NCBI GenBank assembly: GCA_028532765.1
Contig: JAQQAR010000024.1
Coordinates: forward strand, 1 to 32,384
From: Sphaerochaetaceae bacterium
Lineage (GTDB): Bacteria; Spirochaetota; Spirochaetia; Sphaerochaetales; Sphaerochaetaceae
DNA length: 32,384 bases
Direction of reading: 5' to 3'
A program made the position numbers and the translations under genes. Below the pieces are notes generated by a model that saw only the letters and a list, made by a program, of their open reading frames with translations, was not told the origin of the DNA and ran no database searches. Below, one piece after another: positions 3,753-13,993 of the stretch. The stretch's first letter is position 1. Each line of letters starts with the position of its first letter.

Positions 3753-3824
3753 AGCGAAAGACGGGACTTGAACCCGCGACATCCACCTTGGCAAGGTGGA
3801 GCTCTACCACTGAGCTACTTTCGC
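3753..3824 (-). tRNA. tRNA-Gly (GCC)
   Basis: A 72-base cloverleaf with a seven-pair acceptor stem (GCGAAAG with CTTTCGC) and discriminator U, as usual for bacterial tRNA-Gly. The anticodon loop is TTGCCAA on a CCACC/GGTGG stem. The T arm has GGGTTCAAGTCCC. The CCA end is not encoded. It is the last gene of the five-tRNA cluster. Confidence 0.97.
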
Positions 3825-3865
3825 AAAAAACCGTTCTGCCAGACAGTCCAACTTGGATTGTCCTT

Positions 3866-3947
3866 TGCGAGAGAGGGGACTTGAACCCCTACACCGTAAG
3901 GTACCAGATCCTAAGTCTGGCGTGTCTGCCAATTTCACCACTCTCGC
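3866..3947 (-). tRNA. tRNA-Leu (TAG)
   Basis: An 82-base class II tRNA with a short variable arm, a seven-pair acceptor stem (GCGAGAG with CTCTCGC) and discriminator A. The anticodon loop CTTAGGA gives anticodon UAG, reading CUN leucine codons. CCA is not encoded. Confidence 0.95.
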
Positions 3948-3985
3948 GGTGCATGTCTTGCCCCTTAGCGAGGTTCGCCATGTAT

Positions 3986-4058
3986 TGAGCCGCAAAGGGA
4001 TCGAACCTTTGACCCGCAGATTAAGAGTCTGCTGCTCTACCAGCTGAGCTAGCGGCCC
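3986..4058 (-). tRNA. tRNA-Lys (CTT)
   Basis: A 73-base cloverleaf. The acceptor stem GGGCCGC pairs with GCGGCTC including one G-U pair. The anticodon loop CTCTTAA gives CUU, the lysine decoder for AAG. Discriminator A, no encoded CCA. Confidence 0.95.
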
Positions 4059-4089
4059 ATGACAATAAAATTTCAAAAAACCAAACCTC

Positions 4090-4163
<74 letters not shown>

Positions 4164-4180
4164 GCTAACGACCCGGTTAG

Positions 4181-4253
4181 GGTGGAAGACGGGGCTCGAA
4201 CCCGCAACAGCCAGATCCACAATCTGGTGCTCTACCATTGAACTACTTCCACC
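4181..4253 (-). tRNA. tRNA-His (GTG)
   Basis: A 73-base cloverleaf with anticodon loop TTGTGGA (GUG). The acceptor reads GGTGGAAG against CTTCCACC, so the extra G at position -1 opposite C73, the hallmark of histidine tRNA, is encoded. No CCA. It is the first tRNA of the cluster. Confidence 0.96.
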
Positions 4254-11040: not shown

Positions 11041-12150
11041 ATGGCAGATCCTAGAGAAGAGAAGCTGGCAAAGCTTCTGGTGGAGTATTCAGTAAAACTA
11101 CAGAAGGGAGAATCCTGCTTGATCAATGCAGTGGATGTACCCACGAGCATGACTGAGGCCTTGATCAAGGCAGTCTATGATGCAGGTGGATATCCTGTAG
11201 TCAACATCTGGAACCAGAGAATTGAACGTGCGATGGTGGAAAACGCAAGCAAGGAGTCCTTGGAGGCTTGGGCTGATGTAGATACCTATCGGATGAAGCA
11301 GATGGACGCGTTCATCGGCATCAGGGGTATTGCCAATGTCCGAGAACTTGCAACCATACCTGCCCAGTCCAATCTGGCAAGTACGTACTACAATATCCCT
11401 GTTCATATGAAGACCCGTCTTCCCTACACAAAGTGGGTGGTACTCCGCTATCCGACCGAAATCATGGCAATGCAGGGTGGCATGGGAACAAGGGAGTTCG
11501 AGGATTTCTTCTACAAGGTGTGTACTGAAGTCGATTATGAGGCAATGGCAAGAGCGATGGCTGAAGCGAAAACCTTTTTGGATACTGTGGACCAGGTGCA
11601 TATCAAAGCACCAGGAACCGACTTGCAGTTCTCTGTGAAGGGAATGGGTTGGATACCCTGTGCAGGGGAGATGAATATCCCGGACGGGGAAATCTACTCT
11701 TGCCCAGTCAAGGATTCAGTGAATGGAACGATTGCCTACAACACTGCAAGTACCTATCACGGTCATCAGTTCAAGGATGTGCGATTCACTTTCAAGGATG
11801 GGAAAATTGTTGAGGCTCACAGTGATGACGATGCCTTGATCAATGAAATCCTTGACATCGATGAAGGGGCTCGTTACATCGGGGAGTTTGCACTTGGATG
11901 TAATCCAGGCATCATGAACCCCATGGATAATATCCTCTTTGACGAGAAAATCTATGGATCAATCCACTTTACCCCGGGTAATGCCTATGAAGATTGCGAC
12001 AATGGAAACAAGTCAGCAGTCCACTGGGATTTGGTTCAGATCCAGAGAGGTGAGTATGGTGGCGGAGAGATGTACTTCGATGGTGAGCTGGTCAGGAAGG
12101 ACGGTGTTTTTGTCCACCCGAAACTAACCTGCCTGAATCTTTCCCTCTAG
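11041..12150 (+). CDS. M29-family aminopeptidase (AmpS/PepS/aminopeptidase T)
   Basis: A 369-residue metallo-aminopeptidase of the M29 (thermophilic aminopeptidase) family, which removes N-terminal residues from peptides in the cytoplasm using two metal ions. The metal ligands of the family are visible: the glutamate in CAGEMNIPDGE (about 210-220), the glutamate in IGEFALGCNPG, the histidine in GSIHFTPG, the tyrosine in the following AYEDC and the HWD triad in AVHWDLVQI. The ATG is preceded by AAGGAG at 11028. It starts 19 bases after the pseudouridine synthase and is probably co-transcribed. A terminator hairpin follows at 12199. Confidence 0.93.
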   Translation: MADPREEKLAKLLVEYSVKLQKGESCLINAVDVPTSMTEALIKAVYDAGGYPVVNIWNQRIERAMVENASKESLEAWADVDTYRMKQMDAFIGIRGIANVRELATIPAQSNLASTYYNIPVHMKTRLPYTKWVVLRYPTEIMAMQGGMGTREFEDFFYKVCTEVDYEAMARAMAEAKTFLDTVDQVHIKAPGTDLQFSVKGMGWIPCAGEMNIPDGEIYSCPVKDSVNGTIAYNTASTYHGHQFKDVRFTFKDGKIVEAHSDDDALINEILDIDEGARYIGEFALGCNPGIMNPMDNILFDEKIYGSIHFTPGNAYEDCDNGNKSAVHWDLVQIQRGEYGGGEMYFDGELVRKDGVFVHPKLTCLNLSL

Positions 12151-12156
12151 GAGTGC

Positions 12157-12186
12157 TTGACAGTCTTAGGGATAATTCGCTATAAA
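12157..12186 (+). promoter_or_regulatory. Strong promoter before amt-PII
   Basis: A perfect -35 TTGACA (12157-12162), 18 bases and TATAAA (12181-12186). It begins only six bases past the aminopeptidase stop. Transcription would start near 12193, immediately before the first hairpin, so the amt message would have a leader of about 127 bases. No sigma-54 (GG-N10-GC type) site is seen. Confidence 0.75.
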
Positions 12187-12198
12187 GGGTCAAACGTC

Positions 12199-12230
12199 AA
12201 GGGCGATGTGGAGTAATCCGCATCGCCCTT
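12199..12230 (+). terminator. Terminator/attenuator hairpin 1
   Basis: A 14-pair stem (12199-12212 with 12217-12230, one G-U) closed by the tetraloop GTAA, followed by TTTCTTCGTTCT. It can end aminopeptidase transcripts, but because the promoter at 12157 starts RNA just upstream, it can also act as an attenuator for amt-PII. Confidence 0.75.
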
Positions 12231-12262
12231 TCTTCGTTCTGCTGTCCGTTGGGCAGGCGTAC

Positions 12263-12296
12263 AAGGGTGTACGGTGGATTACCATCGTGCACCCTT
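12263..12296 (+). promoter_or_regulatory. Second leader hairpin before amt-PII
   Basis: A 15-pair stem (12263-12277 with 12282-12296, two G-U wobbles) with loop ATTA. A run of five T follows at 12302, just before the AGGGGG ribosome binding site. It begins with AAGGG and ends in CCCTT like hairpin 1, so the two have the same form. It may terminate transcription or mask the ribosome binding site. Confidence 0.6.
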
Positions 12297-12319
12297 TCGG
12301 CATTTTTAGGGGGTAGCGT

Positions 12320-13993
12320 ATGTTCGTATCGGTAGACACCTTGTGGGTGTTGTTGGGTGCTGTGTTGGTGTTTTTCATGCAGGCTGGATTTGCCATGGTT
12401 GAGACTGGTTTCACCAGGGCAAAGAATGCAGGAAACATCATCATGAAGAACCTGATGGACTTCAGTCTGGGAAGTGCGGTGTTCTGGATTCTGGGATTCT
12501 CGTTGATGTTCGGGGGAAGCAATCCCTTTATAGGGTCCCTTGATCTGTTTGTCCGTGGCTCATACGACTCAACCATCCCCACCTCTGCATTCCTGATATT
12601 CCAGACGGTATTCTGTGCAACGGCGGCCACCATTGTAAGTGGTGCAATGGCAGAGCGGACCAAGTTTTCCTCCTACTGCCTGTATTCAATTGTGATCAGT
12701 GCAGTAATCTACCCGATCAGCGGACACTGGATCTGGGGAGGTGGCTGGCTATCAACCCTGGGATTCCACGATTTTGCAGGTTCTACCGCTGTGCATATGG
12801 TTGGTGGGGTTGCAGCATTCTGGGGAGCAAAGATCATCGGGGCAAGGATTGACAAGTATGATGAGAAGGGTAATGCAAAGGCAATCCCAGGGCATAGCTT
12901 GACCCTTGGAGCACTCGGGGTGTTCATTCTCTGGTTCTGTTGGTTTGGCTTCAATGGTGGTTCCTCCCTCTCTCTCACCGGTGATGAGGCAATTGTCTCC
13001 ACATCTACCATCATGGTAACCACGAACCTCGCTGCAGCTTTTGCAGCTACTGCTACCATGGTTCTGACCTGGGTTCGGTACAAGAAACCGGATGTTTCCA
13101 TGACACTCAATGGAGCCCTCGCAGGTTTGGTTGGCATTACCGCAGGTTGTGATGCAGTCTCCCCTGTAGGTGCTGCGCTTATCGGAATCATCAGCGGAAT
13201 TGTGGTTGTGTTCTCTGTCGAATTCTTTGAGAAAGTGGTACACATTGATGATCCGGTTGGGGCCATCTCTGTACACGGGGTCTGTGGTGCGCTGGGTACT
13301 ATACTCACCGGGTTGTTCGCGCTTGATGGTGGACTTTTCTATGGTGGGGGCCTTGGCTTACTAGGCATCCAGAGTGTTGGTGTTCTCTCTGTGATGCTGT
13401 GGGTATCCCTGACCATGGGATTGGTATTTTTCTTAATCAAGAAGACCGTCGGACTCAGAGTCAGTAGGGAAGAGGAGATTGCAGGCTTGGACCTCGAGGA
13501 ACATGGCCTTGCATCCAGCTATGCTGACTTTATGCCGATTGTAGCTGGATTCAAGCCGGCAGCATCCATCGATGAGGCAATCCCAGTGGTAAACAAAGTC
13601 CCACCTGCTTCTACCCCTTCACGTGATGCAGAGATGTACAAGGTGGTCATTGTCAGTCGCCAGAGCAAGTTCAATACGCTCAAGGAAGCCTTGAATGATA
13701 TCGGGGTCATGGGAATGACGCTTACCCAGGTGATGGGCTGTGGAATGCAGAAAGGTCAGAAGGAGTACTACCGTGGGGTGCCCGTCTCTCCGACCTTGCT
13801 TCCGAAGATGCAGGTTGAGACGGTGGTAAGCAAGGTTCCTGTACGGACGGTGATTGAAACGGCAAAGAAAGCCCTATATACCGGACATGTTGGAGATGGC
13901 AAGATCTTTGTGTACACGGTTGATAATGTCGTCAAGGTACGTACCGGTGAGGAAGGGTACGATGCACTGCAGGATGAAGTGGTTCCCGAATAA
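12320..13993 (+). CDS. Ammonium channel (Amt) fused to a PII signalling domain
   Basis: A 557-residue protein. Residues 1 to about 400 form an Amt/Rh ammonium channel with about eleven membrane helices; the pore twin histidines are H159 (STAVHMVGG) and H319 (ISVHGVCG). After a linker of about 40 residues, residues 439-557 are a complete PII (GlnB/GlnK) domain: a T-loop from GCGMQKGQ to LLPK, a B-loop with GHVGDGKIFVY and a C-loop with VRTGEEG. In stand-alone systems PII binds ATP, ADP and 2-oxoglutarate and plugs the channel through T-loop Arg47. That YRG arginine is kept here, as is the Gln that helps bind 2-oxoglutarate. The uridylylated Tyr51 is replaced by Val, so control by GlnD is not expected. 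The ATG follows AGGGGG. Confidence 0.95.
   Translation: MFVSVDTLWVLLGAVLVFFMQAGFAMVETGFTRAKNAGNIIMKNLMDFSLGSAVFWILGFSLMFGGSNPFIGSLDLFVRGSYDSTIPTSAFLIFQTVFCATAATIVSGAMAERTKFSSYCLYSIVISAVIYPISGHWIWGGGWLSTLGFHDFAGSTAVHMVGGVAAFWGAKIIGARIDKYDEKGNAKAIPGHSLTLGALGVFILWFCWFGFNGGSSLSLTGDEAIVSTSTIMVTTNLAAAFAATATMVLTWVRYKKPDVSMTLNGALAGLVGITAGCDAVSPVGAALIGIISGIVVVFSVEFFEKVVHIDDPVGAISVHGVCGALGTILTGLFALDGGLFYGGGLGLLGIQSVGVLSVMLWVSLTMGLVFFLIKKTVGLRVSREEEIAGLDLEEHGLASSYADFMPIVAGFKPAASIDEAIPVVNKVPPASTPSRDAEMYKVVIVSRQSKFNTLKEALNDIGVMGMTLTQVMGCGMQKGQKEYYRGVPVSPTLLPKMQVETVVSKVPVRTVIETAKKALYTGHVGDGKIFVYTVDNVVKVRTGEEGYDALQDEVVPE

Follow-up and report, generated by a model that had tools for sequence, protein, structure and literature searches.

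Closest described systems

A1/G4 hexaloops overlapping a terminator are an established substrate of ANTAR antiterminators, which need the residues A1 and G4, and ANTAR targets ahead of ammonium transporter and P-II genes were predicted in 2012 (PMC3369931). EutV needs two hexaloops separated by a short linker and no longer works once 20 nt are added to that linker (PMC8934654); canonical linkers measure 2-25 nt in curated actinobacterial sites and 5-12 nt in eut. From the EutV structures, in which the dimer binds a single hexaloop at any one time, the minimal ANTAR site was redefined as one hexaloop, and the authors asked how broadly single-hexaloop sites occur (PMC8934654). In Clostridium saccharobutylicum NCP262, nitrogen limitation is said to bring about antitermination of GS/GOGAT genes by the ANTAR protein NitR (Stutz et al. 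2007, as cited in PMC6316151).

The amt leader analyzed here resembled the canonical targets [eutP/eutG of Enterococcus faecalis with EutV, nasF with NasR, and amiE with AmiR (PMC3369931, PMC8934654)] in its A1/G4 hexaloop stems with the 3' side overlapping a terminator, in the presence of an ANTAR protein encoded in the same genome, and in its nitrogen theme; unlike them, it displayed one hexaloop per terminator, the first being located at the predicted transcript start. It is read here as a nitrogen-controlled attenuation leader of amt worked by a NitR-like ANTAR antiterminator, with a probability of roughly 0.84. A search of the accessible literature found no publication on ANTAR control in Spirochaetes.

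Organization of the amt leader

The window (the whole stretch of DNA analyzed, 32,384 nt) belonged to a Sphaerochaeta genome, with S. halotolerans as the nearest named relative by Amt (94% identity). Here and below, amt, PII, and glnA were named by Pfam, and glnN, gltB-like, asnB, and pyrG by eye from the translations. The leader and its surroundings were composed of the following features:

11041-12150: M29 peptidase gene, ending 7 nt upstream of the promoter
12157-12186, + strand: sigma-70-type promoter, TTGACA-18 nt-TATAAA, read from the sequence
12192-12194, + strand: predicted transcription start, placed by consensus distance from the -10 box
12194-12209, + strand: P1, putative antiterminator stem acguc[AAGGGC]gaugu, hexaloop A1/G4, 5 bp
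12199-12240, + strand: T1, intrinsic terminator (stem 12199-12230, then T-rich tail)
12242-12256, + strand: hairpin X, 6 bp, GUU loop, between T1 and P2
12258-12273, + strand: P2, putative antiterminator stem cguac[AAGGGU]guacg, hexaloop A1/G4, 5 bp
12263-12308, + strand: T2, intrinsic terminator (stem 12263-12296, then T-rich tail)
12308-12314, + strand: ribosome binding site AGGGGGT, read from the sequence
12320-13993, + strand: amt-PII fusion gene, the gene proposed to be controlled (PF00909, 4e-125; PF00543, 3.7e-23)

The near-consensus promoter of the original prediction was confirmed, with TTGACA at 12157-12162, TATAAA at 12181-12186, and a spacer of 18 nt; a generic promoter scan leaves it unlisted, because such a scan demands a final T in the -10 box. 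First units across the order (a unit being a small stem plus its terminator) had a similarly placed promoter, 5-13 nt before the small stem. The two long hairpins were also borne out: (i) hairpin 1, the T1 stem at 12199-12230, had 14 pairs, the GNRA tetraloop GUAA, and a T-rich tail, and it possessed the most pairs among the terminator-like sites of the surrounding 7-kb region; and (ii) hairpin 2, the T2 stem at 12263-12296 before the ribosome binding site, had 15-nt arms, all paired when G-U is counted, and the loop AUUA. The leader gave a fold energy of -69.2 kcal/mol versus -40.1 +/- 3.8 for shuffles (z = -7.7), and an Rfam search of the window plus the regulon loci matched no family at the leaders. 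The prediction had held that it would fall if hairpin 1 were absent from the same locus in relatives; the promoter and both hairpins were present again in the Sphaerochaeta amt leaders retrieved, and also in L006, a spirochaete further removed (Amt identity, 72%).

Hairpin X (CUGUCC GUU GGGCAG) was not an ANTAR hexaloop; in 11 Sphaerochaeta leaders, its core pairs were retained in 9-11; the loop was GUU, and some pairs had changed. This hairpin bears on the extremely unlikely alternative that amt is controlled by leader-peptide attenuation or by sequestration of the ribosome binding site. A 36-codon open reading frame started from an ATG in the 3' arm of P1, but there was no space for a ribosome binding site upstream of it, its frame, length, and sequence varied in relatives, and it was absent where the arm read GCTG; leader-peptide attenuation was thus rejected, the short frame being unconserved. 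The full-length minimum-free-energy fold paired the ribosome binding site region with the segment after T1, but relatives kept hairpin X in the very segment needed for this pairing, and sequestration, which came from the fold of a single sequence, was likewise rejected.

Elsewhere in the window, five tRNA genes were clustered at 3753-4252 on the - strand.

Two mutually exclusive folds

An alternative small fold overlapping each terminator, missed in the original prediction, was found at both hairpins: the loop plus 3' arm of P1 formed the start of the T1 5' arm, and the loop plus 3' arm of P2 formed the start of the T2 5' arm. Small stem and terminator are mutually exclusive, because the hexaloop and the 3' arm belong to both folds. 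The matching AAGGG...CCCTT ends that had been pointed out in the two hairpins were real, and they are alike because both hairpins carry the same recognition loop; hairpin 2 is a second switch like hairpin 1 rather than an unrelated structure. Stepwise folding of the growing RNA ranked P1 first at lengths of 20-25 nt and T1 first from ~35 nt onward.

The sequence comparison was applied to 15 non-redundant Sphaerochaeta amt leaders, in which 27 of the 29 terminators had an A1/G4 hexaloop stem, 4 bp or longer, that overlapped the 5' arm, and the remaining two had a hexaloop stem of 3 bp. The first terminator control included true units at other clostridial nitrogen genes, and it was redone on Sphaerochaeta sequence only (191 kb): 15 of the 51 terminator-like hairpins bore the hexaloop stem, all of them standing before amt, glnN, the gltB-like operon, or asnB.

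The original prediction had proposed aligning the leaders of relatives in search of covariation, and both the small stem and the terminator arms did covary. Across 30 aligned units, mostly chosen by a scan requiring the small stem, this stem was 99.2% paired, with a covariation of 0.977 versus 0.211 when shuffled (0/500). The retest used R1, a covariance model pairing only the terminator: outside the genus, R1 gave 52 hits at 40 loci, and their small stems were 98.5% paired, with a covariation of 0.737 versus 0.221 (0/500). The four 3' bases of the small stem covaried with the terminator 3' arm as well. Since the sequences share ancestry, the counts are strong without being exact probabilities. 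A1 and G4 were found in 52/52 hits outside the genus, the R1 model itself favoring these bases; one hexaloop exception was seen, G1 in unit 2 of L098. On this comparative evidence, the leader contains two exclusive folds that are conserved and covarying.

The same data bear on the reading of T1 and T2 as plain terminators, with T1 ending the M29 peptidase transcript, T2 as its back-up, and the promoter lying in between by chance. Both hairpins are good intrinsic terminators, and the peptidase gene stops just 7 nt short of the promoter, T1 quite possibly serving this gene as well. However, the 5' arm of the small stem, which lies outside the terminator, covaried, the 36 other Sphaerochaeta terminator-like hairpins lacked the stem, and the unit was also found just after the promoters of several nitrogen genes in other contexts (see below). 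A plain double terminator was rejected on the covariation outside the terminator and on the regulon, and this reading is regarded as very unlikely.

One genome in which the searches found neither amt nor an ANTAR gene (G016) carried a terminator with the same core beside a peptidase gene (L172:2200-2247), its hexaloop stem being broken on both strands; this single case is possibly a natural loss of the switch.

Target genes and co-occurrence with the ANTAR gene

In 26 genomes of the genus, R1 recovered both amt units and placed further ones ahead of glnN (glutamine synthetase III), ahead of a gltB-like/glnA operon and, in some Sphaerochaeta species, ahead of asnB. The first gene of the gltB-like operon was a glutamine-amidotransferase-like gltB piece, and the operon seems to extend through glnA. 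Across the order, the genes downstream of the units were mostly amt, glnN, glnA, gltB-like, and asnB. These targets would fit a NitR-type induction of GS/GOGAT on nitrogen limitation, judging from the genes that follow the units.

In the glnN leaders of L167, L168, and L169, a further GC-rich stretch of ~120 nt was located between terminator and start codon; this stretch (ggcggccgaaaggugacaaggcc...), ~50-150 nt past the terminator, had no Rfam match and looked structured.

The source genome encoded an ANTAR-domain protein (G000:C86; PF03861, E 1.4e-15). Exactly one ANTAR gene was present per Sphaerochaeta genome where any was detected, placed directly behind glnA and ahead of a gene read as pyrG. 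This glnA-ANTAR adjacency, the feature expected of a NitR-like regulator, was observed at 17/17 Sphaerochaeta loci and at 17/20 ANTAR loci of mostly clostridial genomes. As far as NitR is described in the citing paper, the Sphaerochaeta gene resembles it in its association with glnA and with nitrogen-assimilation targets, and differs in belonging to another phylum and in having amt, glnN, and asnB among its targets.

Unit and ANTAR gene were compared across 139 genomes of the order: 71 had both, 44 had neither, and 24 were discordant, namely (i) 16 with an ANTAR gene and no unit at threshold and (ii) 8 with unit matches and no ANTAR gene detected, these being drafts, several of them incomplete. 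The Fisher test gave p = 7e-15 for the 139 genomes and p = 5e-12 outside the genus, values that overstate the evidence, since the genomes are related; some of the genomes are incomplete drafts. Among 20 other amt-bearing genomes, the unit was found at E <= 3e-4 in 16/17 with an ANTAR gene and in 0/3 without.

It is very unlikely that the refolding switch is real and its hexaloop is read by something else, be it a small RNA, a ligand, or an RNA-binding protein of a different kind. Such a reader would accommodate the 8 genomes with unit matches and no ANTAR gene, as well as the single hexaloops, which fall outside the published dual-hexaloop definition; but several of those 8 genomes are incomplete drafts, the unit co-occurs with the ANTAR gene across genomes, the ANTAR gene is linked to glnA, which itself lies within a target operon, and A1/G4 was invariant in the 52 hits, albeit under a model favoring these bases.

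Proposed antitermination mechanism

Under ANTAR antitermination, RNA polymerase would start at ~12193, and P1, with its 5 bp and A1/G4 hexaloop, would form from the first ~16 nt. If P1 were unheld, its loop and 3' arm would be pulled into T1, and transcription would stop after about 45 nt. An active ANTAR protein would grip the P1 hexaloop on its emergence, so that T1 would be blocked; the choice would then repeat at P2/T2, and amt-PII would be read only after two successive bypasses. In the default state, T1 and T2 would both terminate. Binding of the ANTAR protein to the hexaloops is a putative step of this model. Nitrogen shortage would presumably turn amt on, a direction taken by analogy from NitR of C. 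saccharobutylicum as cited in PMC6316151, and nitrogen status is the putative input signal.

The original prediction had offered attenuation, a short RNA of about 45 bases, or an RNA-binding regulator of nitrogen uptake. Attenuation combined with an RNA-binding regulator is favored, given that the hexaloop stem excludes each terminator and that the unit tracks the ANTAR gene, and the ~45-base RNA would in this case be merely the product terminated at T1.

The spacing of the hexaloops set the leader apart from canonical dual-hexaloop targets: 48 nt lay between the end of P1 and the start of P2, with T1 in this gap, the hexaloop-to-hexaloop spacing in amt leaders of relatives was 61-112 nt, and most other targets had one hexaloop only, placed where the transcript is predicted to begin. 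A second A1/G4 loop within 40 nt was present upstream in 4/74 units and downstream in 7/74, at inconsistent positions. A canonical dual-hexaloop site was rejected, most units having no nearby partner hexaloop. Compared to the definition of an ANTAR-target RNA, the leader had an A1/G4 stem of at least 3 bp, exclusion of the terminator, and an ANTAR gene in the genome, but not tandem hexaloops with a short linker. Judged by sequence features, the leader most likely works like ANTAR antitermination without being filed as a canonical dual-hexaloop member. The mechanism is known; single, separate hexaloops in place of close pairs are a new variation of it, and the 2007 NitR work may already describe single hexaloops. 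The units look like a natural answer to the single-hexaloop question raised for EutV, with one hexaloop and one terminator forming independent, repeated modules.

The glnA-linked ANTAR protein

The regulator had 190 aa and matched only ANTAR in Pfam, a search that gave no receiver domain match. Its predicted structure (pLDDT 94.9) displayed a receiver-like domain, a long helix, and a three-helix ANTAR domain; the best PDB matches of this model were 6wsh and 6ww6 (EutV free and RNA-bound; TM 0.69-0.77), and further structural neighbors were Rv1626 and AmiR (1qo0). The predicted fold was thus that of EutV-type ANTAR regulators, but the phospho-acceptor Asp was absent: Asn54 in L116 occupied the site of the Asp of Rv1626 DLVIMD. 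Most glnA-linked relatives had the motif NAPL in their receivers, with Asp in L189. The alignment gave no clear counterpart of EutV Arg142, an RNA contact, and read His in place of EutV Tyr164.

Asp-less receivers are enriched among ANTAR proteins (PMC4395418). The regulator resembled AmiR of Pseudomonas aeruginosa, an ANTAR-output protein whose receiver has no phosphorylation residues and whose activity is controlled by a partner protein (PMC8934654); unlike AmiR, it had no amide receptor among the loci examined, its neighbors being glnA and the gene read as pyrG. Because its receiver lacks the phospho-acceptor Asp, the regulator probably responds to a partner or ligand reporting nitrogen status, rather than to a histidine kinase; as a guess, the partner could be feedback-inhibited glutamine synthetase, the product of the neighbor gene, or PII.

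Taken more broadly, we lean slightly toward a single-hexaloop ANTAR regulon in Spirochaetes and apparently in Clostridia, in which a hexaloop at about +1 would exclude one terminator (two such modules at amt) and would be read by a glnA-linked, Asp-less ANTAR protein sensing nitrogen via a partner such as glutamine synthetase or PII. If this is true, a dual hexaloop would be unnecessary for ANTAR antitermination. The leader and its relatives provide natural single-hexaloop candidates by the dozen, all on terminators, a setting in which two hexaloops were thought to be required because the moving polymerase leaves little time. As read here, spirochaetes also gain a concrete nitrogen-control circuit (amt, glnN, gltB-like, glnA, and asnB) with one regulator gene.

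Two ANTAR genes per genome were found in some Clostridia: L201 plus L194 in G033 and L184 plus L200 in G036. L184, as well as L183 of G038, was not located beside glnA, and both of these unlinked genes kept the phospho-acceptor Asp, which suggests that the phosphorylated and the aspartate-less ANTAR classes are separate.
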